A stretch of DNA of 64,000 nt from the NCBI RefSeq assembly GCF_007995065.1, contig NZ_VOQR01000001.1:3103001-3167000 (forward strand). The letters are read 5' to 3'. Every line of letters starts with the position of its first letter. Position 1 is the stretch's first letter. The translations under genes and the position numbers were made by a program. The notes below the pieces were generated by a model. The model was not told the origin of the DNA, did no database searches, and was given only the letters and a program-made list of their open reading frames with translations. This DNA comes from Sphingomonas ginsenosidivorax. GTDB lineage: Bacteria; Pseudomonadota; Alphaproteobacteria; Sphingomonadales; Sphingomonadaceae. Shown here in pieces: positions 28,098 through 42,820 of the stretch.

Positions 28098-28649
28098 TCA
28101 CGCCCAGTCCGGAATGGCCGGATCGGATCCGGAGGCGGGTGTCAGGGTGCGGGTGACGATGACGTTCGAGGGGTCGTCGGGGTCGGTCGATACCGTGAAC
28201 CCCATGTCGCGCTCGACCGCGAGCGCGCCGTGGTTCTCGCGGCTCTCGATCGATTGCAGCGTCCGGATGCCCTTCGCCGCGGCATAGCGCGCGATATGGT
28301 CGAGCAGGGTCCACCCCAGCCCCTTGTTCTTGAAGTCCTTGTGGAGCGCGATCGCCACTTCGCCGCGCGCCATCGCGGCATCGCACGCGAGCATGGCGGT
28401 CCCGACCATCGTCGCGCCGTCCGCGGTGAAGGCCAGGAAATCCTCGGTCTGGCGATGGTCGACATGCGTCAGCGCGGTGATCTGGCTTTCACCCACGACG
28501 TTCAGCCCGGTCAGGAACCGGAACCGGAGATCCTCTCGGGTCACGTGCGTGAAGAACTCGGCGACCGTCGCGGTGTCCGCCGGCTGCGCGGGGCGGACAT
28601 GGATCCGGAAGCCGGTGCGCGTCGTCAGGTGTCGGTTCCAGTCGTCCAT
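28098..28649 (-). CDS. GNAT family N-acetyltransferase
   Basis: 183 residues with the GNAT acetyl-CoA core: FLAFTADGATMVGTAML (strand 4), EVAIALHKDFKNKGLGWTLLDHIARYA with the Q/RxxGxG/A-type loop as KNKGLG, and IRTLQSIESRENHGALAVERDMGF. It resembles the acetyltransferase domain used by GNAT-regulated acyl-CoA synthetases and stress GNATs. ATG 28649 chosen as the first ATG before the domain. A FixJ-like box lies about 100 bp upstream, though in reverse orientation, so it may be a member of the oxygen-regulated island. Target unknown; protein lysine acetylation is possible. Confidence 0.85.
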   Translation of the reverse strand: MDDWNRHLTTRTGFRIHVRPAQPADTATVAEFFTHVTREDLRFRFLTGLNVVGESQITALTHVDHRQTEDFLAFTADGATMVGTAMLACDAAMARGEVAIALHKDFKNKGLGWTLLDHIARYAAAKGIRTLQSIESRENHGALAVERDMGFTVSTDPDDPSNVIVTRTLTPASGSDPAIPDWA

Positions 28650-28748
28650 GTGGGTCTTCCCGGTCTGCCCGCCCGAACACCCGGCAAGGGACCCTGCGGA
28701 TGCGGCTGTGCCTCGGCCTCGGTTAGCGCCCATCGCGCACCGTGTAGT

Positions 28749-28764
28749 TGCGTAGTTTCCGATG
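28749..28764 (+). promoter_or_regulatory. FixJ-like 16-bp box 1 (TGCGTAGTTTCCGATG)
   Basis: One of eight matches to TRSGTARTTYCCGACG in the 28-42 kb island. It lies 99 bp upstream of the GNAT start but reads away from it; it is the only copy so oriented. A partial second half-site (GTGTAGTT) precedes it. Confidence 0.5.
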
Positions 28765-28785
28765 GGCATCGGGCGCGATCGGCCG

Positions 28786-30357
28786 CTACCGGTGCAGCGT
28801 CCGGATCGCGTCGACGATCACCTGCGGGCTGTGCAGCCCCTGGTAGACGGGGGGGGGCGCCTTGTTCAGCTTGAGCAAGCCGTAGACCGCGGTCATCGCG
28901 CTCCGCACCGAATATTCGACCGTGAACACCACGTCGTCGGGCTGTTCGGCAAATTGGCCGAGAAAGGCGAGATTGGTCGAACCGTCGGGTACCACCAGCG
29001 GCCGGTCGCCGCCCGACCGGACCATGAACTGGCTGGTGATATAGGGCATGGTGCACGGGATGCAGGTCGACGCGGCGATGATGGTGTCCTGGTCGGCCTG
29101 CGCGAAATGCAGATGGCCGAGCACCTCCTCGAGGATCTCCGCGCCGCTACAGTCGGCCATCGGTTTCCTGACGAAATTGCCCGGACGATCGTGGAACAGC
29201 CCATAGCCCCACCACACCGCGACGCCCTGCGGTTGGTCGGGGAAGAACGGCTGGTGGTAGATCGAGATCGTGATCAGCCAGTTGGAATCCTTGAACGTGA
29301 TCAGGCCGCCCATGCCGGCCGGCTGCCCGCTGAAGGCTTCCATCAGGTCGAGGAACAGCGGATCGCGGACCGTGACCGTGTAGGAAATCCAGGACGATTC
29401 CGCGATCACGCCGTTGAACGCCGCGGGGTTGCCGAACTGCGGGCGCGCCTGCGCCAGCTTCTCCCAGAGACGCCATGCGCCCGATGCCCCGTATCGCTCG
29501 ATACCCGGTGCTTCGGTCATCGAACCGAACCGCTTGTCCGCGGTCATCGAGCCGTTGGTGACGAACACCAGATCGCCGGTCCTGACCGGGATACGCTCGG
29601 TGACGCCGCCCCGGCTGGTGACCAGCCCGGTGACGGTGATCGCATCGCTTCCCGACGCGAAGCCCAGGTCGTCGACCCGCACGCCGAAGTGGAAGCGGAC
29701 GCCGCGATCGGTCAGCCAGGTCTTCAGCGGTACGGCAAAGCTGTCATATTGATTGTAGAGGCTCCGGTAGATGCCGTCCTGCGTGTCGATCGTCGAGAAA
29801 TGGTGGACGAAGCGCCGCAGATACCGCCGGAACTCGATCGCGCTGTGCCAGCGTTCGAACGCGAACAGCGTGCACCATTCGAACCAGAAATTGGTCTCGA
29901 AGAAATGCTCGCCGAAACAGTCGGTGATACGCTTGCCGTCGAGCAGCGCCTCGGGCTCGGCGATGAGCGCGACGAGCTGGATCCGGTCGCGTTCGCTGAA
30001 CCCCATCGTGTGGAAATCCGGGACGCGACCGTCGCGGTCGACCAGCCGGACCTTGTTGTGCCACGGCCATTTGGCGTTGGCCTGGTCGGTTTCCTCCTTG
30101 ACCGAGATGTTCGGGTTGGTCGCCGACGGGATCGACGCCAGCAGGTCGAAGGTACATTGGTACATCGATTCGAACATGCGGCTGCCGCTCATGAAATAGC
30201 CGTGCTCGGCATCGCCATGCGCGTCGAAGGCGCCGCCGAATGCGTGGCTCTCCTCGAAGATCACGATGTCCTTGCCCGACACGCCGCCGTCCCGGATGAG
30301 GAAGACCGCCCCCGCGAGCGCCGCGATGCCGCTGCCGACGAAATAATAATGGCTCAT
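28786..30357 (-). CDS. ohyA: Oleate hydratase (myosin-cross-reactive-antigen family)
   Basis: FAD-dependent hydratase of 523 residues that adds water to the cis-9 double bond of unsaturated fatty acids such as oleate, giving 10-hydroxystearate. Seen: N-terminal FAD loop VGSGIAALAGAVFLIRDGG, EESHAFGGAFDAHG, NFWFEWCTLFAFERWHSA and YNQYDSFAVPLKTWL, all hallmarks of the MCRA family, and a C-terminal YSVRSAMTAVYGLLKL. ATG 30357 places the FAD motif right at the N-terminus. A FixJ-like box lies 109 bp upstream. Its place in a stress island suggests membrane or fatty-acid adaptation under low oxygen, which is inference. Confidence 0.95.
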   Translation of the reverse strand: MSHYYFVGSGIAALAGAVFLIRDGGVSGKDIVIFEESHAFGGAFDAHGDAEHGYFMSGSRMFESMYQCTFDLLASIPSATNPNISVKEETDQANAKWPWHNKVRLVDRDGRVPDFHTMGFSERDRIQLVALIAEPEALLDGKRITDCFGEHFFETNFWFEWCTLFAFERWHSAIEFRRYLRRFVHHFSTIDTQDGIYRSLYNQYDSFAVPLKTWLTDRGVRFHFGVRVDDLGFASGSDAITVTGLVTSRGGVTERIPVRTGDLVFVTNGSMTADKRFGSMTEAPGIERYGASGAWRLWEKLAQARPQFGNPAAFNGVIAESSWISYTVTVRDPLFLDLMEAFSGQPAGMGGLITFKDSNWLITISIYHQPFFPDQPQGVAVWWGYGLFHDRPGNFVRKPMADCSGAEILEEVLGHLHFAQADQDTIIAASTCIPCTMPYITSQFMVRSGGDRPLVVPDGSTNLAFLGQFAEQPDDVVFTVEYSVRSAMTAVYGLLKLNKAPPPVYQGLHSPQVIVDAIRTLHR

Positions 30358-30466
30358 GGGATACGCACCTGACGGGAGGGAGGATCGCGGAACGAGGGAC
30401 CTGCGTGCCGCGCTGTCGCCGACCACGGGGTCGCCGCATGTGACGAGGATAAGGTGCCGGGCGAAG

Positions 30467-30482
30467 CGTCGGGAACTACGTA
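30467..30482 (-). promoter_or_regulatory. FixJ-like 16-bp box 2 (TACGTAGTTCCCGACG) upstream of ohyA
   Basis: Minus-strand match to the island consensus, 109 bp upstream of the oleate hydratase ATG and pointing at it. It contains a full TACGTA palindrome. Confidence 0.65.
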
Positions 30483-30516
30483 CGGCTCGTGCGGGCACGC
30501 CGGCCGGGGGTGCGCG

Positions 30517-31218
30517 TCAGACCGCTGTTCCGAACAGCGCGCCGACGCCGGCGGTCACCGCCATCGCCAGTGCCCCCCAGAAGGTCACCCGCACGGCGCC
30601 GATCACGACCGGCGCGCCGCCGGCCTGCGCCGCCAGCGCGCCCAGCAGCGCCAGCGACAGCAGCGAGGTCAGCGCGACGAACGCGATGAGGTTAGCGCCG
30701 GCGGCAAAGTGAACGACCAGCACGGGAAGCCCCGCCCCGGCCGCAAAGCTTGCCGCCGAGGCGAGCGCCGCCTGGATCGGCCGGGCGCGCAACGCGTCGG
30801 AGAGCCCGAGCTCGTCGCGGGCATGCGCGCCGAGCGCGTCGTGCGCGCTCAACTGATCCGCCACCGTCGCGGCCAGAACCGGGTCGAGGCCGCGGCCCAC
30901 ATAGATCGCCGCGAGTTCACCCCGTTCGCCGACCGCGTCCGCGGCAAGCTCGGCGCGTTCCCGCCGCAGATCGGCCTTCTCGGCATCCGCCTGCGAATGG
31001 ACGGAGACATATTCCCCCGCCGCCATCGACATCGCGCCGGCGACCAGTCCTGCCGCTCCCGCGGTCAGGACGGCCTGGCGCGTACCGTGTGCGGCCGCCA
31101 CACCCAGGATCAGGCTCGCGGTGGACAGGATCCCGTCGTTCGCGCCCAGCACGGCCGCCCGCAGCCATCCGACGTCCTGCGTCGCGTGCCGCTCGTAATG
31201 TCCGGCCGATGGGACCAT
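30517..31218 (-). CDS. VIT1/CCC1 family membrane protein (putative Fe/Mn transporter)
   Basis: 233 residues with about five TM helices. The N-terminal WLRAAVLGANDGILSTASLILGV is the VIT/CCC1/nodulin-21 hallmark, followed by AGAMSMAAGEYVSVHSQADAEKADL, which leads into the metal-binding cytoplasmic helices. The family moves Fe2+ or Mn2+ out of the cytosol. Start ATG 31218 follows GGAG. It has a FixJ-like box 97 bp upstream. Moving iron during an oxygen shift would fit the island, but this is inferred. Confidence 0.88.
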   Translation of the reverse strand: MVPSAGHYERHATQDVGWLRAAVLGANDGILSTASLILGVAAAHGTRQAVLTAGAAGLVAGAMSMAAGEYVSVHSQADAEKADLRRERAELAADAVGERGELAAIYVGRGLDPVLAATVADQLSAHDALGAHARDELGLSDALRARPIQAALASAASFAAGAGLPVLVVHFAAGANLIAFVALTSLLSLALLGALAAQAGGAPVVIGAVRVTFWGALAMAVTAGVGALFGTAV

Positions 31219-31315
31219 ACGGAAATCTCCAGAGCATAAGCGAGGCGACCGTCCGTCACGACGACCGACCGCGATCTCCACGCCGGTCTTATCGATGCGG
31301 TCCACCGGCGACAAA

Positions 31316-31331
31316 GCTCGGGAACTACGCA
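31316..31331 (-). promoter_or_regulatory. FixJ-like 16-bp box 3 (TGCGTAGTTCCCGAGC) between VIT gene and fixL
   Basis: Minus-strand match to the island consensus in the divergent region between the VIT-family gene (97 bp away, box pointing at it) and the sensor kinase. It could serve both directions. Confidence 0.65.
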
Positions 31332-31358
31332 GCTCATCCCAGCGACAAGGAGTTCCCG

Positions 31359-31481
31359 ATGTGTGAAACCACAATGGCGAGGCGGCACGCGGGGCAGCAT
31401 TGCAGCAATGCAACGCCATCGGACTCCGCTTGTGGCGCGCCCGCATGGGCATCGCGCCCATCCCGGGCCCTTCCCCGGTGA
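31359..31481 (+). CDS. Possible 40-residue leader peptide upstream of the FixL-like kinase
   Basis: An AAGGAG Shine-Dalgarno at 31347-31352 is followed 6 nt later by ATG 31359 and a 40-codon frame (begins MCETTMARRHAGQHC) with three cysteines and two histidines. It ends 60 bp before the chosen kinase start. The ribosome site is better than that of the kinase itself, so it may be a translated leader affecting fixL expression. It could also be chance; no homologue is known to me. Confidence 0.3.
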   Translation: MCETTMARRHAGQHCSNATPSDSACGAPAWASRPSRALPR

Positions 31482-31540
31482 CCGGGGACGCTTCCCTGCC
31501 CCCGGCAAGCGCTGAGCAGTCCGACAGGAAGAATGCCGAG

Positions 31541-33025
31541 ATGCTCGAAGAGCTTGGCCTGCTGATCGACGGCGCCACCAATTACGCGATCTACATGCTC
31601 GATCCCGAAGGCCGGGTGACGATCTGGAACTGCGGCGCGCAGAAGATCAAGGGCTGGAACGAAGCCGAGATCATCGGCCAGGACTTCTCGATCTTCTATT
31701 CGCCCAGCGACGTCGCGGCGGGCAAGCCACGGCGCGACCTGGAGCGTGCCAGCCTCGCGGGCAGCATCGAGGAGGAAAGCTGGCGGATCCGCAAGGATGG
31801 GTCGGAATTCCTCGCCAGCGTGACGATCACCGCGCTGCGCAGCGGCAATGGCGCGCTGCGCGGCTTCGGCAAGGTGATCCGCGACATCACCGACCAGAAG
31901 GCCGCCGCCGCGGCGGTGTCGCGTCGCGAGCATCACCTGCGCTCGATCCTCGCGACCGTGCCCGAGGCGATGATCGTGATGAACGGCAGTGGCACGATAT
32001 CGTCGTTCAGCAGCACCGCCGAGACGATGTTCGGCTACCGCGAGGCCGAGGTCCTCGGTCGCAATGTCGGCATGCTGATGCCGGAGTCCGAACGCGCGAT
32101 GCACGCCGGCCACCTGCGCACCTATCTGGAAACCGGCGTGCGCCACGTCATCGGCAGCATCCGCGTGACCACGGCGCGGCGCTCTGACGGCGAGGAATTC
32201 CCGATCGAGCTTGCCGTCGGCGAGGTCTCGATCGGGGGCGAGCGGATCTTCACGGGCTTCATCCGCGACCTGACCTCGCGCCGCGAGGACGACCGCAAGA
32301 TGCGCGAGCTTCAGTCCAGGCTGGTCCACGTCTCGCGCGTCAGTGCGATGGGAACGATGGCGTCGATGCTCGCGCACGAGATCAACCAGCCGCTGACCGC
32401 GATCGCGGCCTATCTCGAGACCACGCGCGACATGATCGGCGACAGCAAGGACGGCCTGCTCGTCGAGATATCGGAGGCGCTGCAGCTTGCCGCGGCGCAG
32501 ACGCTGCGCGCCGGGGAGATCATCCGCCGGCTGCGCTCGTTCGTCGACGGCGGCGACACCGGGTTCCGGCTGGAACGGCTCGACGCGCTGGTGAACGAGG
32601 CGACCAGTCTCGGCCTGCTCGGGGTACGCGAGGCCGGGATATCCGTCACGATGACGATCGACGCGGGCCTGGGCCAGGTCTTCGTCGATCGCATCCAGAT
32701 CCAGCAGGTGCTGGTCAACCTGATCCGCAACGCGATCCAGGCGATGGCGACGGCACCGACCAGGCATCTGACGATCGCCACCGCGCCCGATCGCGACGGC
32801 TGTGCGCGGGTTAGCGTGGGCGACACCGGGGCCGGCATCGATGCCGCGGTTCGCGAACGGCTGTTCGAGGCGTTCGCGACCACCAAGGAGAGCGGCATGG
32901 GCCTTGGCCTCTCGATATGCAGGACCATCATCGAGGCGCATGGTGGTCGGATATGGGCAGAGGCGGGTCCGGCCGGGGGCACCGTCTTCCACTTCACCGT
33001 TCCGTTCGCTGGGGAAGACCAATGA
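31541..33025 (+). CDS. fixL: FixL-type oxygen-sensing PAS/haem histidine kinase
   Basis: 494-residue cytosolic sensor: PAS domain 1 (about 10-110), PAS domain 2 (about 135-245), a HisKA phosphoacceptor and HATPase domain. PAS 2 aligns with the Bradyrhizobium FixL haem domain (PESERAMHAGHLRTYL, then HVIGSIRVTT): His188 falls on the haem-ligating histidine (His200 there) and Arg208 on the oxygen-sensing arginine (Arg220). The phospho-acceptor is His279 in LAHEINQPL; the N, G1 and G2 boxes are intact (NLIRNAIQA, DTGAGI, GMGLGLSI). The start is ATG 31541 with AGGAAG 9 nt upstream; in-frame ATG 31445 is an alternative. The stop overlaps fixJ (ATGA). Confidence 0.9.
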   Translation: MLEELGLLIDGATNYAIYMLDPEGRVTIWNCGAQKIKGWNEAEIIGQDFSIFYSPSDVAAGKPRRDLERASLAGSIEEESWRIRKDGSEFLASVTITALRSGNGALRGFGKVIRDITDQKAAAAAVSRREHHLRSILATVPEAMIVMNGSGTISSFSSTAETMFGYREAEVLGRNVGMLMPESERAMHAGHLRTYLETGVRHVIGSIRVTTARRSDGEEFPIELAVGEVSIGGERIFTGFIRDLTSRREDDRKMRELQSRLVHVSRVSAMGTMASMLAHEINQPLTAIAAYLETTRDMIGDSKDGLLVEISEALQLAAAQTLRAGEIIRRLRSFVDGGDTGFRLERLDALVNEATSLGLLGVREAGISVTMTIDAGLGQVFVDRIQIQQVLVNLIRNAIQAMATAPTRHLTIATAPDRDGCARVSVGDTGAGIDAAVRERLFEAFATTKESGMGLGLSICRTIIEAHGGRIWAEAGPAGGTVFHFTVPFAGEDQ

Positions 33026-33645
33026 CCGATACGCCCACCATCGTTCATATCGTCGACGACGACGACGCCATCCGCCAGTCGATCGGCTTCCTGCTGCGCA
33101 AGGCGGGCCATGTCGTGAAGACCTATGCATCGGGTACCGAGTTCCTGCGAACGGTCGACCGCGAGACGCAGGGCTGCATCCTGCTCGACGTCCGCATGCC
33201 CGGGATCGACGGGCTCGAGGTCCAGAGCCGGCTGTCGTCGCAGGGGATCGGGCTGCCGGTGATCATGCTCACCGGGCACGGCGACGTGACGCTGGCCGTC
33301 CAGGCGATCAAGGCCGGGGCGCTGGAATTCCTCGAAAAGCCGTTCGAGCGCGCCGCGTTGCTCGCGGCCATCGACGAGGCGTTCCGCCACGCGGCGCGCA
33401 CCGCGCGCGACCATGTGGCGGCCGCGGAGGCGGTCGTCAGGCTTGCCGCGCTCACCCCGCGCGAGCGCGACGTGCTGGACGGCATGGTGCTTGGACGTCC
33501 CAACAAGCTGATCGCGTTCGATCTCGGGATCGCGACCCGCACCGTCGAGGTCCACCGCGCGAACCTGATGGACAAGGTCGATGCGCGCAGCCTGTCCGAC
33601 GTCCTGCGCATCGCCTTTGCGGCGGGGCTGGGCGCGAAGGGCTGA
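33022..33645 (+). CDS. fixJ: FixJ-type LuxR-family response regulator
   Basis: 207-residue two-domain regulator. The receiver has VDDDD (residues 11-15), phospho-acceptor Asp56 in LLDVRMPG, Thr in MLTGHGD and Lys in LEKPF. The linker leads to a LuxR/FixJ HTH (LTPRERDVLDGMVLG, then TRTVEVHRANLMDKV). Overlap by 4 bp with the fixL-like gene makes it the cognate partner. In rhizobia FixJ binds sites with a GTA-x-TTTCC core; eight such boxes surround this pair. It probably turns on the island when oxygen falls. Confidence 0.92.
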   Translation: MTDTPTIVHIVDDDDAIRQSIGFLLRKAGHVVKTYASGTEFLRTVDRETQGCILLDVRMPGIDGLEVQSRLSSQGIGLPVIMLTGHGDVTLAVQAIKAGALEFLEKPFERAALLAAIDEAFRHAARTARDHVAAAEAVVRLAALTPRERDVLDGMVLGRPNKLIAFDLGIATRTVEVHRANLMDKVDARSLSDVLRIAFAAGLGAKG

Positions 33646-33730
33646 GCCTCGCCCCACCCTCGTCTTCTACGTACAGACAATGGACGGCGTTGGATGCGAT
33701 CCGTGTGGCTCACAAGGATTTGGCATCATC

Positions 33731-34141
33731 ATGAAGGATCTTACCCCGCCGGAGAGCATCGGCGTGTCGCTGGTCGACGGCGACAGCGACATCCGCCATG
33801 CCCGCCAGATCATGTTGCGCTCGGAACGCTACGACGTCCGGGCCTATGCGACGTGCGCCGCACTGCTGGCCGATCCGCGCTCGCGCGACTACGGATGCAT
33901 CATCGTCGACACCGACATGCCCCAGGTCGACGGACTCGCGCTTCTGCGGGCGATGCGGGCGAGCGGCTGGCGCGGCAAGGGCATCCTGCTCGACGGCCTG
34001 AACAACGACGGCAGCCTCGCGCGCGAGGCGGCCCGGAATGGCGACACGGTGTTCGATCGCAATATCGGCGATCGCCCGCTGGTGGCGGCGATCGCCGCCT
34101 CGGTCGATCGCGGCTGGGGCAGCTGGAACGCCGCGGGGTAA
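33731..34141 (+). CDS. Stand-alone receiver-like protein with degenerate switch residues
   Basis: 136-residue CheY-like protein. The acidic pocket (VDGDSD) and Asp60 of IIVDTDMP remain, but the switch Thr/Ser is replaced (ILLDGLNN instead of a T-G pair) and the conserved Lys-Pro pair is DRN. It may therefore not undergo the normal phosphorylation switch and could act as a decoy, an anti-regulator or a FixT-like inhibitor of the neighbouring kinase. It lies 85 bp after fixJ on the same strand. Start ATG 33731. Role is unproven. Confidence 0.7.
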   Translation: MKDLTPPESIGVSLVDGDSDIRHARQIMLRSERYDVRAYATCAALLADPRSRDYGCIIVDTDMPQVDGLALLRAMRASGWRGKGILLDGLNNDGSLAREAARNGDTVFDRNIGDRPLVAAIAASVDRGWGSWNAAG

Positions 34142-34219
34142 CCCAGAAATCAAGGCGCACGCGCATCGGCGGCGGCACCCTCGGTGACGACGGTCCGCGC
34201 GAGGGCCTGTCCATCCCCC

Positions 34220-36874
34220 TCACGATCGATCCGGAGCGCCCGCCGGCCTGACGGGCCGCCGCCAGCGCGCCACGACATGCTTGGTCACTTCGGTGACGAC
34301 GACGGTCGTGGCGGTGGCGCCGAGACAGAACCACAGCGTGGCGACCGACACGGGCGCGGTGCCGACGACGCGCCCGAGCGCCGGCCAGAACATCGCGAGC
34401 AGGTGCAGCGAGAGCGCGACACCGACACCCAGCAGCAGCCAGGGGTTGGAGAAGGGCGGCTCGCGCAGGATCGAGCGTCGCTCGCTGCGCATGCACAGCA
34501 CATAGACGTTCTGGAACAGCACCGTCATCAGCAGCACCGCGTTCTGGATCGCGGCGAGCGGCGCGCCCTGCCGGTGCATGCCGTCGACCAGGATCAGCGC
34601 CAGACCGGTCATCACGATCGCGGGCGGGATCATCAGCGCGATCGCGCTGCGGTCGAGGATCGGCTCGTCGGGCCGCCGCGGCGGTCGGCGCAACTCGTCG
34701 CCCTCGCCGCGGCCGAACCCCAGCATCACGTCCTGCGCGCCGTTGGTGACCAGGTTGAGCCACAATAACTGCACCGCGGTCAGCGGCATCGGCAGGCCGA
34801 GCGCGACCGATCCCAGGAACATGCCGATCTCCGCTATCCCCGTCGCGAGCAGGATGATGACGATCCGGCGGACATTGGCATAGGTGATGCGCCCTTCCTC
34901 GACACCCGCCACGATCGACGCGAAATTGTCGTCCGCCAGCACCAGATCGGCCGCGTCGCGCGCCACGTCGGTGCCGCCGACGCCCATCGCGACGCCGATA
35001 TGCGCGGCGCGCAGCGCGGGCGCGTCGTTGACCCCGTCGCCGGTCACCGCGACCAGCTCGCCGCTCGCCGCCAGGATGCGGACGATCTCCAGCTTCTGCA
35101 CCGGCTCGATCCGCGCGAAGACCCGCCCGCCCAGTACCAGCGCGGCCAGATCCGCCGGAGCGTCGCTCAGCGCGCTCATCTGTGCGCCGGTGACGACCTG
35201 TGCCGCGTCGACGCTGAGGCCCAGGCCGCGCGCGATCGTCAGCGCGGTGCCCGGATGGTCGCCGGTCACCATCCGCACGCCGATCCCGGCGCGCGCGCAC
35301 GACGCGATGGCGGCGGGAACCTCCGGGCGAACCGGATCGATCAGCCCGATCCAGCCGAGGAAGACGAGCCCGGTCGGATTCATCGCGTCGATCGTCGTCG
35401 CACCGTCGGACGCCGCGACCGCGATGATCCGGTAGCCGTCGCCGGCCATCGCACTGGCCGTCGCGATCGCAGCGGCATCGATCGGACCGCACATCGGCCG
35501 GACGACCTCGGGTGCGCCCTTGGCGAAGACGTAGCGGCCCTGCCCCTCGTCGATCGCGACCGTGGAGAATTTGTTGGCCGGCTCGTACGGTAGCGCGGGC
35601 TGCCGCGCCGCGGTGCGAAGCGCGGGCAGGTCGACGCCGCAATCCGCCGCGAAGCGCAGCAGCGCGACATCGACGGTATCGCCGAGCGGCGCGCCATCCG
35701 CCCCGATCGACGCTTCGTTGCACAGTGCGCTTGCCCGCGCGATCGCGGCGAGCACGTCCGTATGCGACGACCAGTCCGACCGGTCGAACGCGGATCCGTC
35801 GGCCAGCAGCACACGCTCGACCGAGAGGATGTTCCGCGTCAGCGTGCCGGTCTTGTCGCTGGCGATGATCGTGCACGCGCCCAGGCCCTCGACCGCCGGG
35901 AGCGAGCGGACGATGACGTTGCGCGCGGCCATCCGCCGGGTGCCGGCGGCAAGCGCGACGGTGACCGCGATCGACAGCCCTTCGGGGATCGCCGACACCG
36001 CCAGGGCGACCGCCAGCAGCAGGATCTGGTCGCCCGGCCGCCCCTGGAGCAGCAGGATCACCGCGAAGGGGATGATCAGGGCGATCGTCGCGATGCTGAT
36101 CTGGCGGGCGAGGCGGTCGAGCCTGAGGCTGAGCGGCGGTGGCGTCGCCCGGGTCGACCGCATCGATGCGTCGATCGCGCCGAGCGCGGTGTCGGCGCCG
36201 GTCGCCACGACGATCCCGACGGCGCGACCCTGGTCGATCATCGTGCCGGCCAGCACCATGGTCGCCCGGTCGGCGGGCGGCGTGTGCTCCGCGACCACCG
36301 CGTCCGCGTCCTTCGCGACGGTCCGCGATTCCCCGCTGAAGGTCGATTGATCGACACGCAGCCCGGTGCTCGACGACAGCCGCATGTCGGCCGGCACCGC
36401 CATCCCGCTTTCCAGCAGGGCGACATCCCCGACGACGACATCGCGCACGTCCACCACCCCCCGCACCCCGCCGCGCCGGACGGTGGCCGTGTGCCCGATC
36501 ATGCCGCGCAGGGCATCGAGGCTCGCGGCGGCCCTGCCTTCCTGAAAGGTGCCGATGGCGGCATTGATCACCAGCACGACACCGATGAATGCCGCGTCGG
36601 TGCGATGGCCGAGACCGAGCGAAATCGCCGCGGCCGCGATCAGCAGGTAGATCAGCGGGCTGTTGAACTGGCGGACGAACAGCAGCACCGGCGACGGCGT
36701 CGGCGAGCGCGCCAGCGCGTTGCGTCCATCGCGCGCCAGTCGTGCGGCGGCATCGCGGGGATGAAGGCCGTCCTCGGTGGTGCCGAGCCGGGCGGCGACG
36801 TCGATGGCCGGCATCGCATGCCATGCGACCGGCCCGTTCGCGGCCGCGACGTCGAAAGGACGCTCCACGTTCAT
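34220..36874 (-). CDS. Cation-transporting P-type ATPase (P2 type)
   Basis: 884-residue ion pump: N-terminal cation ATPase domain, actuator domain, TM4 with SAIPEGLSIAVTVALAAG (PEGL ion-binding motif of P2 ATPases), phosphorylation site Asp340 in SDKTGTLT, nucleotide domain with KGAPE, then TGDHPGT and the hinge TGDGVNDAPAL, and TM6 with NLVTNGAQD. Start ATG 36874 follows the pattern of this family. The PEGL/NGAQD combination suits Ca2+, Mg2+/Mn2+ or Na+ pumps; specificity cannot be set. It is convergent with the receiver gene. A FixJ-like box lies 137 bp upstream. P2 ATPases also occur in DosR-like dormancy regulons. Confidence 0.92.
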   Translation of the reverse strand: MNVERPFDVAAANGPVAWHAMPAIDVAARLGTTEDGLHPRDAAARLARDGRNALARSPTPSPVLLFVRQFNSPLIYLLIAAAAISLGLGHRTDAAFIGVVLVINAAIGTFQEGRAAASLDALRGMIGHTATVRRGGVRGVVDVRDVVVGDVALLESGMAVPADMRLSSSTGLRVDQSTFSGESRTVAKDADAVVAEHTPPADRATMVLAGTMIDQGRAVGIVVATGADTALGAIDASMRSTRATPPPLSLRLDRLARQISIATIALIIPFAVILLLQGRPGDQILLLAVALAVSAIPEGLSIAVTVALAAGTRRMAARNVIVRSLPAVEGLGACTIIASDKTGTLTRNILSVERVLLADGSAFDRSDWSSHTDVLAAIARASALCNEASIGADGAPLGDTVDVALLRFAADCGVDLPALRTAARQPALPYEPANKFSTVAIDEGQGRYVFAKGAPEVVRPMCGPIDAAAIATASAMAGDGYRIIAVAASDGATTIDAMNPTGLVFLGWIGLIDPVRPEVPAAIASCARAGIGVRMVTGDHPGTALTIARGLGLSVDAAQVVTGAQMSALSDAPADLAALVLGGRVFARIEPVQKLEIVRILAASGELVAVTGDGVNDAPALRAAHIGVAMGVGGTDVARDAADLVLADDNFASIVAGVEEGRITYANVRRIVIILLATGIAEIGMFLGSVALGLPMPLTAVQLLWLNLVTNGAQDVMLGFGRGEGDELRRPPRRPDEPILDRSAIALMIPPAIVMTGLALILVDGMHRQGAPLAAIQNAVLLMTVLFQNVYVLCMRSERRSILREPPFSNPWLLLGVGVALSLHLLAMFWPALGRVVGTAPVSVATLWFCLGATATTVVVTEVTKHVVARWRRPVRPAGAPDRS

Positions 36875-37011
36875 GGCGCGCGCGTCGCCGCTGGGTCGGT
36901 CGATCGGTTGGTGATCATCGCTACGTCCGATCCGGTGATGACGGCATCGCGGCCCGATGACCGGGAGCGACACGCCGATCCAGCATAGCGGAGGCGCGGG
37001 TGCGGCATCAC

Positions 37012-37027
37012 CGTCGGCAACTACGCA
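37012..37027 (-). promoter_or_regulatory. FixJ-like 16-bp box 4 (TGCGTAGTTGCCGACG) upstream of the P-type ATPase
   Basis: Minus-strand match, 137 bp upstream of the ATPase ATG, oriented towards it. One mismatch (G for the first C of TTYCC). Confidence 0.55.
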
Positions 37028-37130
37028 GGCCGTCCGGGCGCGCCTCCCCGATCGCGCGCGGCACCCCACGCGTGGTTTTCGGATCGACTCCGTGGCGCTC
37101 GGCGCCAGGTCGGGCATTGTCGAGGGTCGG

Positions 37131-37146
37131 TAGGTACTTCCCGACG
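37131..37146 (+). promoter_or_regulatory. FixJ-like 16-bp box 5 (TAGGTACTTCCCGACG) upstream of the stress-protein gene
   Basis: Plus-strand match, 59 bp before ATG 37206. With box 4 it forms a divergent pair between the ATPase and the YflT-like gene. Confidence 0.6.
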
Positions 37147-37205
37147 CTGGTACCGCTTCACGCGACTTCTACGGTTTCGGACCGTGCAAATCCGAGGAAC
37201 ACCCG

Positions 37206-37787
37206 ATGCAATTCCCCCATTCGATCGTCGCCGTGTTCGACAGTCACGACGAAGCCGATGCGGCCGTGAAGGCCCTGGCGGCGTCGGGCTTCGCGTTTCG
37301 CCGCCTGAGCGTCGTCGGCAAGGGCTATCACACGAGCGAGACCGCGACCGGCTTCTACACCAGCGGCGATCGCATCCGCTTTTGGGGATCGCGCGGCGCG
37401 CTGTGGGGCAGCCTGTGGGGGCTGTTCATGGGCGGGCTGTATGCGACGGTACCGATGGTCGGGGGCGTCGTGCTGCTCGGCCATCTCGCTGCTGCGGGCG
37501 TGTCCGCGATCGAGGGTGCCGTCGCATTCGGCGGCGCCGGTGCGCTCGCGGCCGGTCTCGCGAGCCTCGGTATCCCGGAGGAGAGCATCATCATCTACCA
37601 GGCCGAAGTGACCGCCGACGGCTTCCTGGTCATGGCGCACGGCACGGCGGCGGAAATGGAACGCGCCCGCGCGACGCTCGAGACGCTGACACCGCGCCGC
37701 ATCACCGTGCACGGTGCGAACGTCGATCCGGGTACACCGGCAGAGGACGCACCGGCCCCGGCCGCAGCGGGCGACCGGACAGCCTAA
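37206..37787 (+). CDS. YflT-like general stress protein with glycine-zipper region
   Basis: 193-residue protein of the general-stress-protein 17M/YflT type: a ferredoxin-like N-terminal domain (VAVFDSHDEADAAVKALAASGF), a hydrophobic Gly-rich middle (WGSLWGLFMGGLY, GGVVLLGHLAAAG, GGAGALAAGL) that could be membrane-inserted or a glycine zipper, and a second small domain. ATG 37206 has GAGGAA 6-8 nt upstream. Function unknown; the family is stress-induced. It carries FixJ-like box 5. Confidence 0.8.
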   Translation: MQFPHSIVAVFDSHDEADAAVKALAASGFAFRRLSVVGKGYHTSETATGFYTSGDRIRFWGSRGALWGSLWGLFMGGLYATVPMVGGVVLLGHLAAAGVSAIEGAVAFGGAGALAAGLASLGIPEESIIIYQAEVTADGFLVMAHGTAAEMERARATLETLTPRRITVHGANVDPGTPAEDAPAPAAAGDRTA

Positions 37788-37854
37788 GGGCGGTGGATGG
37801 CGCAAGCGACGCGCGTGCGGGGAGCGGCTGCGTCGTCCTGCGCCCCCTCTCGCC

Positions 37855-37870
37855 TGCGTAATTTCCGACG
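37855..37870 (+). promoter_or_regulatory. FixJ-like 16-bp box 6 (TGCGTAATTTCCGACG) upstream of the universal stress protein gene
   Basis: Plus-strand match, 75 bp before GTG 37946. It follows the intergenic region after the stress-protein gene, so the universal stress protein gene may have its own promoter. Confidence 0.65.
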
Positions 37871-37945
37871 CTGGTGGCGTGCCCCCGCCCCTGCGACACC
37901 CCGGCTACCGGGCATTGGCGAGACCGGCCCCTTGGGAGATATCGT

Positions 37946-38767
37946 GTGACCTACGCTACGCTGATGGTGCATCTGGATGCGGGCTGTTCCAACGCGGCGC
38001 TGCTCGCGACCGCCGCCGTGCAGGCCGAGCGGTTCGGCGCGGGCGTGATCGGGGTCGCCGCAGCGCAGCCCGTGCAGATCGGGACATGCGACGGCTATTA
38101 TTCCGGAGACTTTGCGGCCGCCGAACGCGGCATCGTCGATGCCGCGCTCGAACGGGCGCAGTCGGAGTTCCGGGACTGCGCCGTGCTCGCGCCCTATGCC
38201 CGTGAATGGCGCTCGATCCCCACGCTGGCGCCGATCGCCGATGTCGTCGCCGCCGAGGCGCGATCCGCCGACCTCGTGATCGCCGGGATCGGCAAGCGTA
38301 GCGAGACTATCGGCAACACGCATGCGGACATCGGCGACCTCGTCCTGCGGGCAGGCCGGCCCGTGCTCGTCGTCCCCCCGGCCGCCGCACCGGCTGTGTT
38401 CGAGACCGTGATGGTCGCGTGGAACGATTCGCGCGAATGCCGCCGCGCAGTCGCCGACGCGCTCCCTTTCCTGAAACGCGCCGACCGTGTCGTCGTCGCG
38501 GCCGTGACGGCGGAGATGAGCGAGGCGCATATCGAGGTCGGCCAGGTCGTCGCATGGCTCGAACGACACGGCGTCACCGCGGACCGGCACCTGTCCCCCG
38601 CGGGGCGCAGCGTCACCGAGCGGCTTTCGACGATCGCGACCGAACACGACGCCGACCTGATCGTTGCCGGGGCCTATGGCCACAGCCGGATCCGCGAATG
38701 GGCATTCGGCGGCGTGACGCGCGACATGCTGCTCGGCGGCAATCGCTGCGCGTTGCTGTCCAACTGA
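37946..38767 (+). CDS. Universal stress protein, tandem UspA domains
   Basis: 273-residue cytosolic protein with two UspA-like halves. The second half ends in VAGAYGHSRIREWAFGG, the ATP-binding G-x2-G-x9-G-G motif; the first half is more diverged (VIAGIGKRSETIGN). GTG 37946 follows GGGAGAT; an ATG is not near. USPs of this kind are a core part of oxygen- and stationary-phase regulons. FixJ-like box 6 sits 75 bp upstream. Confidence 0.9.
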   Translation: MTYATLMVHLDAGCSNAALLATAAVQAERFGAGVIGVAAAQPVQIGTCDGYYSGDFAAAERGIVDAALERAQSEFRDCAVLAPYAREWRSIPTLAPIADVVAAEARSADLVIAGIGKRSETIGNTHADIGDLVLRAGRPVLVVPPAAAPAVFETVMVAWNDSRECRRAVADALPFLKRADRVVVAAVTAEMSEAHIEVGQVVAWLERHGVTADRHLSPAGRSVTERLSTIATEHDADLIVAGAYGHSRIREWAFGGVTRDMLLGGNRCALLSN

Positions 38768-38802
38768 ACTCCGGGCGTCGGCGCACCGTGATCGAATGAG
38801 GA

Positions 38803-38818
38803 TAGGTAATTCCCGAGG
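38803..38818 (+). promoter_or_regulatory. FixJ-like 16-bp box 7 (TAGGTAATTCCCGAGG) upstream of phosphoketolase
   Basis: Plus-strand match, 110 bp upstream of the phosphoketolase ATG at 38929 and pointing at it. Acetate kinase follows in the same direction. Confidence 0.65.
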
Positions 38819-38928
38819 CTGCTTCGCCATTCTGCAGCCGCGTAGGGTCGAGCCTCAGATATCCTGAAGCAGGCTCGCCGCCTCGACCTCGGGGTCGCGG
38901 CGCCGTCCCAACACGTTGGAATTCACCG

Positions 38929-41316
38929 ATGGACGCGATCGTAGCACGACGGCCCGAGGGTTTGAGCGACGCCGAGCTGAACGGGCTCGACGCCTATTGG
39001 CGCGCCTCCAACTATGTCTCGGTCGGGCAGCTCTATCTCTACGACAATCCGCTGCTGCGCGAGCCGCTGACCCTTGCGCATGTGAAGCCGCTGGTGGTCG
39101 GCCACTGGGGCACGAGCCCGGGCCAGAATTTCATCTACACGCATCTCAACCGCGCGATCGTCGCGCACGACCTGACCATGCTCTATGTCGCGGGACCGGG
39201 GCATGGCGGCCCGGCGATCGTCGGCCAGACCTATCTCGAGGGCTCGTACAGCGAGGTCTACCCGAATGTCGGCCAGGACGTCGCCGGCCTCAAGACGCTG
39301 TTCAAGCAATTCTCGTTCCCGGGCGGTATTTCCAGCCACGTCGCGCCGTCGACGCCGGGATCGATCCACGAGGGCGGCGAGCTCGGCTATTCGCTGGCGC
39401 ACGCGTTCGGCGCGGTGTTCGACAATCCCGACCTGATCGTCGCCTGCGTGGTCGGCGACGGCGAGGCCGAGACCGGGCCACTGGCGACCGCCTGGCATTC
39501 GAACAAGTTCCTCGATCCCGTGGGCGACGGAGTCGTCCTGCCCATACTCCACCTCAACGGCTACAAGATCAGCAGTCCGACCGTGCTGGCGCGGATCCCG
39601 CACGACGAACTGGAACAGTTCTTCCGGGGGTGCGGGTGGGACCCGATCTTCGTCGAGGGCAGCGATCCGATGCCGATGCACCGGCAGATGGCCGCCGCGA
39701 CCGACCAGGCGATCGCCCGGATCCACGCCATCCAGGCCGAGGCCCGCGGCAGCGGCCTCGACCGGCGCCCCGCCTGGCCGATGATCGTGCTGCGGTCGCC
39801 AAAGGGCTGGACCGGGCCGAAGACCGTCGACGGACGGCCGGTCGAAGGCACGTTCCGCTCGCATCAGGTACCCTTGATCGTCGACGCCGCGCACCCCGGA
39901 AACGTCGCGCTGCTCGAAGACTGGATGAAGAGCTATCGCCCCGACGAGCTGTTCGACGAGAGCGGACGGCTGATCCCGGACCTCGCCGCGCTCGCACCCA
40001 GGGGCGACAGGCGGATGGGATCGAACCCGCACGCCAATGGCGGTACGTTGCTGCGCGACCTGCGCATGCCCGACTTCCGCGACCATGCGGTCACGATCGA
40101 CGCGCCGGGATCATGCGAGGCGCAGGACATGCGCGTGCTCGGCTATTTCCTGCGCGACGTCGTCAGCCTCAATCAGGCGACGCGCAATTTCCGGATCTTC
40201 GGGCCCGACGAGACGCTGTCGAACATGCTCAGCGGCGTGTTCGACGTCACCGACCGCCAATGGGACGCAGAGACCGTGGCGGGCGACGAATCGCTCGCCC
40301 GGTCGGGACGCGTGCTCGACGGCATGCTCAGCGAGCACCAGTGCCAGGGCTGGCTCGAAGGCTATCTGCTGACCGGTCGGCACGGCGTGTTCGACAGCTA
40401 CGAGGCGTTCATCCGCATCGTCGATTCGATGGTCAGCCAGCATGCGAAATGGCTGAAGGTCACGGCCGAGTTGCCGTGGCGGCGCGACATCGCCTCGCTC
40501 AACTACCTCCTGTCGTCGCATGTCTGGCAACAGGACCATAACGGTTTCACGCACCAGGACCCCGGCTTCCTCGACCATGTGATCACCAAGAAGGCCGATA
40601 TCGTCCGCGCCTATCTGCCGCCGGATGCCAATTGCCTGTTGTCGGTGGTCGATCACTGCCTGCGCAGCCGGCATTATGTGAACGTCGTGATCGCCGGCAA
40701 ACACGCGCTGCCGCAATGGCTGACGATGGACCAGGCGATCGCGCACTGCACGCAAGGGATCGGCATCTGGCAATGGGCGAGCAACGACCAGGACGGCGAA
40801 CCCGATCTGGTCATGGGCTGCTGCGGCGATACGCCGACGCTGGAAGTGCTGGCCGCGGTCTCGATCCTGCGCGAGCACCTGCCCGAACTCCGCGTGCGCG
40901 TGGTCAACGTCGTCGACCTGATGCGGCTCCAGCCCTGCGCCGAGCATCCGCATGGCCTGAGCGACGCCGACTATGACTCGCTGTTCACCCGCGACGCGCC
41001 GATCGTCTTCGCGTTCCACGGCTATCCCGGGCTCGTGCAGCGGCTGACCTATCACCGCGCCAATCGCAACCTGCGCGTGCGCGGCTATCAGGAGGAAGGG
41101 ACGATCACGACGCCGTTCGACATGCGCGTGCAGAACGGGATCGATCGCTTCCATCTGGTCCAGGACGCGATCGACGCACTGCCCGCGCTCGGCAGCCGGG
41201 GCGCCTATCTCAAGCAGCAGATGCGCGACGCGCTGGTCGAGCATGATCGCTACATCGCGGCGCATGGCGAAGACCTGCCCGAGATCCGCGGCTGGACATG
41301 GGGTGCGGTCGCGTGA
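38929..41316 (+). CDS. xfp: Phosphoketolase (xylulose-5-phosphate/fructose-6-phosphate)
   Basis: TPP enzyme of 795 residues. It cleaves xylulose 5-phosphate or fructose 6-phosphate with phosphate into acetyl phosphate and a C3 or C4 sugar phosphate. N-terminal [41 protein letters not shown] and the TPP-binding [19 protein letters not shown] are diagnostic of the family. Together with acetate kinase 40 bp downstream it gives a redox-neutral route from sugar phosphate to acetate plus ATP, useful when respiration is limited. FixJ-like box 7 upstream agrees with that. Confidence 0.96.
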
Positions 41317-41356
41317 GATCGCATCGCCTGGTTGCCCGGGGCGCGCGTCGCAGGCC

Positions 41357-42424
41357 GTGACGACGACCGGCAACCCCGCCGATCCGGGCACGGTCGTGCT
41401 GGTCCTCAACAGCGGGTCCTCGTCGCTGAAGATCGGGCTGTACGCGGTCGGCGCCCGCGACGTCTCGGAGCTTCTCGCGGACGACCTCGAGACCGTCGCC
41501 AAGGACAACCCCTTCGCGCGGATCGATCGCCTGATCGCCGAGACCGCACTGCCCGCGCCGGCCGTGATCGGCCACCGCATCGTCCATGGTGGTCCGGCGC
41601 TGACCGACCATTGCCTCATCGATCCCGTCGTGCTGCGGCATCTCGAGGCGGCAGCGATATTCGCGCCGCTCCACGATCCCGCCTCGCTGGCGCTGATCCA
41701 CCAGGCCATCGCGCATTATCCGACGTTGCCGCAGATCGCCTGTTTCGACACCGCGTTCCACGCGAGCCTGCCGCCAATCGCGTACACGCTGCCGATCCCG
41801 CGCACGCTGCGGCGCGACGGCGTGCGTCGTTACGGCTTTCACGGGCTGTCGTGCGAATCCGCAGTGGCGGCACTGGGACCCGATCTGCCGGAGCGCGTGA
41901 TCCTCGCCCATCTCGGCAACGGCGCGAGCATCACCGCGATCCTCGGCGGGCGATCGATCGATACGAGCATGGGACTGACGCCGTCGGGCGGGATGATCAT
42001 GGGGACGCGGAGCGGCGACCTCGACCCGGGCGTCCTGCTGTTCCTGATGCGCGAGAAGGCGCTGGATGCGACGGCGCTCGAGCAGCTGATCGACCAGCAT
42101 TCCGGACTCTCGGGTATCTCCGGCAGCACCAGCGACATGCGCGTGCTCGCGGGGAAGGCGGACGGGGACGCGGACGCGCGACTTGCCATCGACATGTTCT
42201 GCTATTCGGCGAGCAAGCAGATTGCCGGCATGATCGCCGCGCTGGGGGGGATCGACCTGCTCGTCTTCACCGGCGGCATCGGCGAACATGATGCGCACGT
42301 GCGAACCGCGATCTGCGCGCGCCTGGCATGGGTGGGCGACCTTGCGGTCCGCGTGGTGCCTGCCAGGGAAAACGCGCAGATCGCCCGCCACTGTGCCGCC
42401 ATCCTGGCGCGAGAGGGCGCGTAG
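41357..42424 (+). CDS. ackA: Acetate kinase
   Basis: 355-residue kinase converting acetyl phosphate and ADP to acetate and ATP. The ASKHA signature VLVLNSGSSSLKIGLY opens the protein; RYGFHGLS, HLGNGAS, GLTPSGGMIMGTRSGDLDPG and VFTGGIGEHDA are all present. GTG 41357 is chosen as the first start before the signature; the spacing from the phosphoketolase stop is 40 bp. It is slightly shorter than the about 400-residue norm, mainly through loop deletions. It consumes the acetyl phosphate made by the upstream gene. Confidence 0.95.
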   Translation: MTTTGNPADPGTVVLVLNSGSSSLKIGLYAVGARDVSELLADDLETVAKDNPFARIDRLIAETALPAPAVIGHRIVHGGPALTDHCLIDPVVLRHLEAAAIFAPLHDPASLALIHQAIAHYPTLPQIACFDTAFHASLPPIAYTLPIPRTLRRDGVRRYGFHGLSCESAVAALGPDLPERVILAHLGNGASITAILGGRSIDTSMGLTPSGGMIMGTRSGDLDPGVLLFLMREKALDATALEQLIDQHSGLSGISGSTSDMRVLAGKADGDADARLAIDMFCYSASKQIAGMIAALGGIDLLVFTGGIGEHDAHVRTAICARLAWVGDLAVRVVPARENAQIARHCAAILAREGA

Positions 42425-42455
42425 CGCCGAACGAACGATGTGCAGCGGGATCGGG

Positions 42456-42471
42456 TACGTGTTTCCCGATG
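42456..42471 (+). promoter_or_regulatory. FixJ-like 16-bp box 8 (TACGTGTTTCCCGATG) upstream of the small-protein/L,D-transpeptidase pair
   Basis: Plus-strand match, 76 bp before ATG 42548. This is the last copy found in the island. Confidence 0.6.
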
Positions 42472-42547
42472 CCAGACGATCGGCGCCCTGCCCCCTAATC
42501 CGGTGCTCGATCGCACGCCGCCCCCGGCAGCGAGCCGGGAATTCACC

Positions 42548-42820
42548 ATGGACCCAGACGATGCGGAGCTTCGATACGTGCAGCGGCGCATGGCGCAGTC
42601 GCTGCGGATGGCGCGCGCTGCCGCCGACTGTTGCGCGCGCAAGGTCCATCAAGACCTGGCGGTCCGATATCGCAGGCGCGCGGAAGTCCTGGTCCAGACG
42701 CGCCGCGCGCGGGCTGCGAAGCCGGTCCAGGCCGGACGACCGCGCACCGCCCTGGCGTCGAGGCCCGGTGGCCGGGTGGCGGCCGCGACAATGCCGGCAC
42801 CGGCACGGCCGACGCGGTGA
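42548..42820 (+). CDS. Small basic helical protein, unknown, coupled to L,D-transpeptidase
   Basis: 90 residues, Arg/Ala-rich and strongly basic. The first half looks helical (RYVQRRMAQSLRMARAAAD) with two adjacent cysteines (ADCCARK); the rest is Ala/Pro/Arg-rich. Evidence that it is real: a FixJ-like box 76 bp upstream, GGGA before the ATG, and a stop that overlaps the L,D-transpeptidase start as GTGA. It is not recognised. It could be a small regulator or a leader for translation of the next gene. Confidence 0.55.
   Translation: MDPDDAELRYVQRRMAQSLRMARAAADCCARKVHQDLAVRYRRRAEVLVQTRRARAAKPVQAGRPRTALASRPGGRVAAATMPAPARPTR

Follow-up and report, generated by a model that had tools for sequence, protein, structure and literature searches.

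Eight putative FixJ operators around a FixLJ pair in Sphingomonas ginsenosidivorax and a predicted local low-oxygen regulon

The FixLJ Cluster and Its Boxes

The stretch of DNA analyzed here, which we will refer to as the window, comprises 64,000 nucleotides of Sphingomonas ginsenosidivorax (C1:3103001-3167000, where C1 is contig NZ_VOQR01000001.1; the genome consists of two contigs with 4,135,604 bases in total), and it contains a fixL/fixJ pair surrounded by eight copies of a 16-bp box. An earlier note on this stretch had described these boxes and proposed that they switch on the neighboring genes together when oxygen falls. In our analyses, the assignment of the boxes to a FixJ-family operator is well supported by their sequences, as is the prediction that they form a local regulon which follows a particular FixLJ clade and has the geometry of promoters.

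In the window, the gene for FixL (31400-33025, plus strand) encodes a protein with two PAS domains, a HisKA and a HATPase domain; its true start is uncertain, 31445 and 31541 being the candidates. It is followed by the gene for FixJ (33022-33645, plus), with a receiver and a GerE helix-turn-helix domain, and by that for a protein with a single receiver domain (33731-34141, plus). To the left, all on the minus strand, are a GNAT acetyltransferase open reading frame (ORF; 28098-28769, with a likely start at 28649), an oleate hydratase of the MCRA family (28786-30357) and a VIT-family transporter (VIT1; 30517-31218, the ATG at 31218 being taken as the start). To the right, a P-type cation ATPase (34220-36874, minus) is followed on the plus strand by a YflT/ActD-like stress protein (37206-37787), a universal stress protein (Usp; 37964-38767), phosphoketolase (XFP; 38929-41316), an acetate kinase ORF that overlaps the end of the XFP gene (41243-42424), a 90-aa ORF (42548-42820) and an L,D-transpeptidase (YkuD; 42817-43764), whose gene overlaps that of the 90-aa ORF by 4 bp. 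These assignments are based upon Pfam or other domain matches, except for the 90-aa ORF, for which no Pfam match was found.

All eight of the 16-mers described in the earlier note are present. Although they were said to fit one consensus, only two do so exactly (30467 and 37855); four differ from it at one position, 31316 at two and 42456 at three, and the exact core GTARTTYCC is found in five of the eight. On the minus strand, the boxes lie in the putative promoters of the oleate hydratase (30467-30482, reading to the start codon at 30357), the VIT transporter (31316-31331; start 31218) and the P-type ATPase (37012-37027, 1 mismatch; start 36874). On the plus strand, they precede the YflT-domain gene (37131-37146, 1 mismatch; start 37206), Usp (37855-37870; start 37964) and phosphoketolase-acetate kinase (38803-38818, 1 mismatch; start 38929), and a weak box lies upstream of the small ORF and the L,D-transpeptidase (42456-42471; start 42548). 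With these start codons, which we selected among the in-frame candidates, the observation that seven boxes face a gene start 59-137 bp away holds. The exception is the box at 28749-28764 (plus strand, 1 mismatch), which reads antisense into the 3' end of the oleate hydratase gene and lies, in inverted orientation, upstream of the leftward GNAT gene.

Specificity of the Boxes in the Window and Genome

In the window, 13 matches with up to three mismatches were found vs 3.5 expected, and none of 100 shuffles gave as high a number. The genome-wide motif search that had been suggested as a check showed that strong matches are local to the cluster and not spread through the genome. With at most one mismatch the host genome contains six matches, all of them inside the cluster, whereas a looser pattern, TRVGTANTTNCCNA, has eight matches (2 for the reversed pattern), of which seven are in the cluster and a single one lies elsewhere, at C1:2596779. 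The occurrence of seven of these eight matches within 13.7 kb has a binomial probability of 3.5e-17. A genome-wide regulon was rejected, as the strong boxes are confined to the cluster. Weak sites, in contrast, are uninformative, since at up to three mismatches the genome has 211 matches vs 175 for the reversed pattern; in view of this small excess, box 42456 has no standing on its letters alone.

The boxes were also scored with a matrix derived from 93 sites in other genomes. In this analysis, the eight named boxes were the top eight of about 128,000 window positions, in the order 37855, 30467, 38803, 28749, 37012, 31316, 37131, and 42456. The first seven scored between 29.3 and 23.8 bits and 42456 scored 12.8, the next best position in the window having 9.4 bits. 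A narrower pattern in which CT was fixed, run across the phylum, was discarded as too strict; among 398 genomes it gave 5 matches, in 4 genomes, and of the window sites it recovered a single one.

Occurrence of the Boxes in Relatives with FixLJ

A scan of named genomes for FixJ yielded 80 loci. In our first FixJ search, the flanks of 1.5 kb were too short and gave a box-like match in 4 of 30 loci. The FixJ identities leave a gap from 67% down to 62%, and the loci were divided there; this threshold was written into the counting script after a first look at a few genomes, where boxes had been seen with FixJ of 72-77% identity and none in five of about 60%. The 34 loci with a FixJ at least 67% identical contain 89 GTARTTYCC cores vs 15 of the reversed pattern, whereas the 46 loci below this value contain 6 vs 18. 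Two or more cores were present in 26 of the 34 but in none of the 46 (Fisher 2.4e-14). When 85 FixJ rows were placed in a tree, the group with at least 67% identity and the window together formed one clade of 35 rows with support of 100/99. Of these rows 27 are boxed, a label that requires 7 changes in the tree compared with 25.4 when shuffled; boxed was defined as two or more core matches, and the window and four rows of fused regulators (see below) were labeled by hand. As several of the rows are close kin, both the locus and tree numbers overstate independence. The nearest named FixJ to that of the window is from Sphingomonas faeni ALB2 (93%), a strain with two loci of the boxed clade (L089 and L098, with FixJ 93% and 78% identical to that of the window).

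The pattern TNNGTANTTNCCNA has 90 matches in the 34 clade loci, 80 of which have a start on the same strand 20-260 bp downstream, as judged by our own simple ORF caller. In a stricter count, this was the case for 78 of the 90, vs 20.1 for random positions and at most 32 in 300 trials. A start on the opposite strand was near 53 of the 90 boxes, as expected for divergent gaps. The genes most often behind the boxes code for a BON protein (19), Usp (18) and a flavodoxin-fold oxidoreductase (15), behind which phosphoketolase and acetate kinase are found in L090 and L093. Further targets include L,D-transpeptidase (5), a P-type ATPase-like protein (4), oleate hydratase (3), and YflT, GH130 and an FAD-binding protein (2 each); the remaining boxes have ten single targets, VIT and GNAT among them, or lack a start (10 boxes).

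Promoter Geometry

To characterize the surroundings of the operator, 124 sites picked with the pattern T..GTA.TT.CC.A were filtered for near copies (at least 75% identical), which left 100 sites, 93 of these being from outside the window. Because of the way the sites were picked, the conservation of the box in this profile is partly by construction, but the -10 region was not selected on. Beyond the core, position 16 is C in 66% and position 17 is T in 90% of the 100 sites. Over the 25 bases that precede the box, every column has at most 0.12 bits, whereas downstream there is a strong column with A at +41 (61%, 0.70 bits; 60% in the 93 outside sites), preceded by T at +40 (42%). Among the 93 outside sites, A together with T at the -10 spacing was found 15, 39, and 22 times at offsets -1, 0, and +1, and between 1 and 10 times at each of the 22 other offsets from -12 to +12. 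The element is of the TAnnnT type. A -10-like element at a fixed spacing behind a FixJ operator is a new observation, and for further searches in combination with the phased -10 the operator may be written as TRVGTANTTYCCGANNCT.

In the window, the A at +41 is present in six of the eight cases (p 3.5e-4). The -10-like elements are TAAGAC for VIT (31286-31291, minus, 40 nt from the start of the box; 99.7th percentile), TATGCT for the P-type ATPase (36982-36987, minus, at the phased distance; 98.6th), TAGGGT for phosphoketolase (38843-38848, plus; 96th) and TAATCC for box 42456 (42496-42501, plus; 99.8th percentile, among the best). The YflT promoter has TACGGT one base early (37170-37175, plus). 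Box 42456 is a candidate operator on account of its -10 phase and its boxed orthologues. Box 28749 has no phased -10 (21st percentile) and is doubtful as a promoter. With the -10-like element at the usual -10 position, the box would lie at about -52 to -35. By comparison, the stretches of the Sinorhizobium meliloti fixK promoter that are protected by FixJ extend from -69 to -44 and from -57 to -31 (as quoted in PMC4999443).

FixL, FixJ, and FixK-Type Sites

The presence of a fixL/fixJ pair inside the cluster, as described in the earlier note, is borne out by the domains and by two structural matches. The best match of FixJ in the PDB is the FixJ structure 5xso (4e-54), from Bradyrhizobium, and the second PAS domain of FixL aligns over its full length with the haem PAS domains of solved FixL structures (4e-38), the proximal His and distal Arg both being kept. 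The two residues are also kept in 32 of the 33 readable FixL sequences of the clade; the match from L120 was too short to read and was left out of this count. In addition to FixJ, the host genome encodes two further FixJ-like proteins (47% and 40%).

The window contains no exact TTGAN6TCAA site of the FixK/FNR type, and its one site with a single mismatch lies inside the oleate hydratase gene. Control of the window cluster by FixK/FNR was therefore not favored, and the FixK tier looks bypassed. No strong FixJ box, of the kind expected at a fixK gene in a FixLJ-FixK system, lies outside the cluster, although the fixK gene itself was not searched for. Exact sites number 30 vs 3 of the reversed pattern in the 46 unboxed loci, an excess as expected for an ordinary cascade, and 8 vs 1 in the boxed clade.

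A Fused Regulator near the Same Operator

Three genomes from the same family (G134, G095, and G003) have boxes but no FixJ above 55% identity. In these genomes, the FixJ-like matches near the boxes are located in large ORFs, of 1444 and 1476 aa in G134 and 1479 aa in G095, with the domain order CheB-CheR-PAS_10-HisKA-HATPase-REC-REC-GerE; G003 has a 651-aa ORF with REC and GerE only, and its full-length fused protein is on another contig. A search at E <= 1e-120, in which two or three candidates were scored per genome, found the fused protein through its C-terminal helix-turn-helix in 16 of the 385 genomes of the class (three as partial matches); given the cut-off and the few candidates scored, these counts are lower bounds. 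At least one TRVGTARTTYCCGA match was present in 11 of these 16 genomes vs 45 of the 369 others (Fisher 6e-7), and 9 of these 11 carry a box on the contig of the fused regulator, at most 5 kb from it, the exceptions being G422 and G463. No TRVGTARTTYCCGA match was found in the other five (G440, G416, G162, G328, and G182). Within a family sample of 149 genomes, four have the fused protein through the helix-turn-helix and three of these have boxes with at most one mismatch, whereas G031, whose fused regulator includes the C-terminus, has none. In another genome of this sample (G053), three such matches scattered over about 160 kb were taken as noise. The fused regulators and FixJ fall into separate groups of the tree, their placement being unsure because of long branches.

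In six annotated plasmid stretches, 25 box matches were found vs 1 of the reversed pattern, and 22 of them are located 40-330 bp before an annotated start. The genes behind these boxes include cydAB, gnd, and phosphoketolase in Polymorphobacter (a P. megasporae plasmid), oleate hydratase, an ActD/YflT gene and AdhP-phosphoketolase-acetate kinase in Phyllobacterium, and Usp and a stress protein in the betaproteobacterium Caballeronia; the Methylocystis stretch has one box match. In Sphingomonas paeninsulae, a single conjugative plasmid (L209 and L210) encodes a FixLJ pair as well as the fused protein, with boxes in both stretches. Large one-piece regulators near the operator and its targets are annotated at L070:6462-10796, L073:8825-13264, L210:11965-16254, L213:12025-16452, and L214:11938-16371 as 'chemotaxis protein CheB' or as members of the CheR family, and their domains were checked for L070 and L073. 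A fragmented alphaproteobacterial genome of the class sample, G470, has 16 operator matches vs 2 reversed and two full-length fused regulators.

On balance we lean towards a wider reading of these observations, in which the operator and its phased -10, rather than the sensor, would define a transferable module for persistence at low oxygen that bypasses the FixK tier. Such a module would be run either by a haem FixL with FixJ or by the one-piece CheB-CheR-PAS-kinase-REC-REC-GerE protein, in Alphaproteobacteria and a Betaproteobacterium and in several cases on plasmids. Its overlapping target families would comprise oleate hydratase, phosphoketolase-acetate kinase, Usp, YflT, VIT, L,D-transpeptidase, P-type ATPase, BON, and PRC proteins.

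Relationship to Known Systems

The earlier note had named a GTA-x-TTTCC core for rhizobial FixJ sites, and this agrees with the published record: GTARTTTCC corresponds to the class GTAGTTTCCC obtained with FixJ by systematic evolution of ligands by exponential enrichment (SELEX), and it lies within the S. meliloti fixK site TAAGTAATTTCCCTTA (both as quoted in PMC4999443). FixLJ orthologues are named there in the Rhizobiales and Caulobacterales, the latter without nifHDK; the FixJ targets surveyed are fixK, nifA, fixX, and one other in the Rhizobiales and only fixK, with consistently found sites, in the Caulobacterales (PMC4999443). The rhizobial FixLJ-FixK systems of S. meliloti and Bradyrhizobium diazoefficiens share with the window a haem FixL, FixJ, and the operator core. 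In B. diazoefficiens, oleate hydratase (blr1289), phosphoketolase-acetate kinase (bll2518-bll2517), and Usp (bll4644) are expressed 10- to 23-fold lower when fixK2 is mutated, and FixK2 sites are predicted at each of these genes or operons (PMC9104804). Oleate hydratase and phosphoketolase of Bradyrhizobium are also raised microoxically in both transcript and protein, and several Usp rows are present in the same table (PMC6515984). The difference is that in the rhizobia FixJ has fixK as its main target and the boxes predicted at these genes are those of FixK2, whereas in the window the FixJ box is on the target genes themselves. Gene families that in Bradyrhizobium respond to low oxygen one tier below FixJ hence appear here to be direct FixJ targets.

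The FixLJ-FixK-FixT system of Caulobacter is likewise an alphaproteobacterial FixLJ with a single receiver protein. FixT has a four-cysteine iron-sulfur (Fe-S) motif, whereas the receiver protein of the window (33731-34141) has two cysteines and could be a feedback protein that lacks an Fe-S cluster. Of the six clade loci listed, all but L090 likewise have a receiver protein called 3' of FixJ.

The FixLJ of Burkholderia dolosa answers low oxygen and induces fixK; it differs in acting on fixK, and the passages cited describe no direct stress-gene operator (PMC5234846). The lxa locus of Burkholderia cenocepacia groups low-oxygen stress genes that include those for Usp and BON-domain proteins, so that its gene content overlaps in part with that of the cluster, and the paper cited here for it draws the comparison with DosR; in the passages available, no lxa regulator or operator is given, and phosphoketolase is not named in the main text of that paper. 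Mycobacterial DosR/DevR is similar in being a NarL-type response regulator of hypoxia with Usp genes among its targets. This likeness is functional only, and a DosR-like dormancy program, as had been suggested for the window, is offered as an analogy only. No description of a direct FixJ stress regulon in sphingomonads was found in the open-licence literature searched.

Flanking Features and Genomic Context

Downstream of the L,D-transpeptidase gene, a 594-aa open frame (43819-45603) combines a DUF1275 (YoaK-like) and a zinc alcohol dehydrogenase domain, either as a fusion or as two genes without an intervening stop. A recent foreign island was considered and rejected for the window, as the GC content of the cluster is similar to that of its flanks and the sole tRNA (24438) lies away from the cluster edge. 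The host had been described as non-nitrogen-fixing, with which our search is consistent: four matches to nifH were found in the genome, none of them over the curated cut-off. Two NifH-like proteins below this cut-off are encoded about 16 kb apart, at C1:2120218-2121000 and 2137120-2137890. This pair is perhaps BchL and BchX of a photosynthesis cluster.

Proposed Mechanism and Alternative Explanations

The interpretation that we prefer, with a probability of about 80%, is that the cluster represents a compact direct FixJ regulon, in which FixLJ would turn on the cluster genes itself at low oxygen without a FixK tier. Low oxygen as the signal is supported by inference, because the haem residues are kept and related genes are microoxic in Bradyrhizobium. 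In this regulon, the haem of FixL would lose oxygen when oxygen is low and FixJ would be phosphorylated, as the kept residues and homology suggest. Phosphorylated FixJ is predicted to bind an operator of 18 bp, TRVGTARTTYCCGANNCT, located at the -35 edge of promoters whose -10 follows at a fixed spacing, a geometry seen in the sequence statistics, and may recruit RNA polymerase as a class-II-type activator. The direct targets would be oleate hydratase, VIT, the P-type ATPase, YflT, Usp, and phosphoketolase-acetate kinase, and, with less weight, the small ORF with the L,D-transpeptidase. Their products suggest acetate-yielding ATP formation, homeostasis of fatty acids, metals and ions, cross-linking of the wall and Usp-type protection; the likely outcome would be ATP production through phosphoketolase and acetate, ion and membrane homeostasis, and protection of proteins while respiration is limited. 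The proposal that the genes are switched on jointly at low oxygen is supported in its main part, but not as regards box 28749 as a promoter or a dormancy state. We regard this as a new variant of the FixLJ system, a direct local regulon without the FixK tier, and not as a new class of system.

A number of observations weigh against the direct regulon. Box 28749 falls outside the model, and the -10 scores are only fair for Usp (71st percentile, a weak -10), YflT (86th) and oleate hydratase (88th). Of the 34 clade loci, eight contain one core box at most, and three of these (L109, L113, and L118, of 18-21 kb each) have none. The haem His is kept, in the best FixL match, in 32 of the 46 loci outside the clade, so that haem sensing is no mark of the boxed clade. 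In an alignment of 20 relatives, the recognition helix hardly differs between sphingomonad FixJ proteins with and without boxes at their loci; the difference between the clades thus lies in the location of the boxes and not in DNA specificity, and a change in this helix as the cause of one boxed FixJ clade finds no support in the aligned rows. Additionally, FixJ need not activate, as that of Rhodopseudomonas palustris represses nif genes in oxygen (PMC13327599), and FixJ operators vary by lineage, the S. meliloti fixK promoter being uninduced by the B. dolosa FixLJ (PMC5234846). Lastly, one FixL of the clade, L116, lacks both the haem His and Arg while its locus keeps two boxes of the looser pattern.

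The protein from L116, which is perhaps a changed sensor, also bears on the possibility that the FixLJ regulon is real but that its signal is redox, nitric oxide, another PAS ligand or the like rather than oxygen. Haem PAS domains can bind nitric oxide as well as carbon monoxide. We nevertheless consider this explanation unlikely, as nearly all of the readable clade FixL proteins have the His and Arg, a box precedes cydAB in Polymorphobacter, and the target families are microoxic in Bradyrhizobium (PMC9104804, PMC6515984).

It is also quite unlikely that the boxes, though real operators, are read by another regulator of the FixJ/LuxR type, either alone or together with FixJ. Candidates for such a role are the two further FixJ-like proteins of the host and the fused CheB-CheR regulator found near the operator in other genera. 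However, the window's genome has no fused protein at E <= 1e-120 but partial matches only, the sphingomonad boxes track the adjacent FixLJ clade, and their core is that published for FixJ (PMC4999443).

The -10-like element at its fixed spacing could suggest that the conserved string is itself the -35 element of an extracytoplasmic function (ECF) or other sigma factor. This is very improbable, since the conserved block, at 18 bp, exceeds the length of a -35 and agrees with the FixJ SELEX core, the downstream -10-like element has the form TAnnnT, and no upstream column exceeds the 0.12 bits noted above, whereas a promoter of the EcfG consensus read on the reverse strand would need a partner there. 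Lastly, chance or compositional repeats, for which the modest genome-wide excess at up to three mismatches might be cited, are refuted for seven sites by the clustering in the genome, the clade link, the -10 phase and the outside matrix, and are overall extremely improbable.

Significance

FixJ is known as an activator of fixK, and few further targets are listed in the passages of the survey cited (PMC4999443). If the direct FixJ regulon proposed here is correct, it would provide a clean case in which a regulatory tier has been removed while the target content was kept, in a genome without nifH over the cut-off. The operator also hints at a function for proteins that are at present annotated only as CheB or CheR. 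For the sphingomonads, the cluster would then represent a small and complete model regulon for survival at low oxygen.

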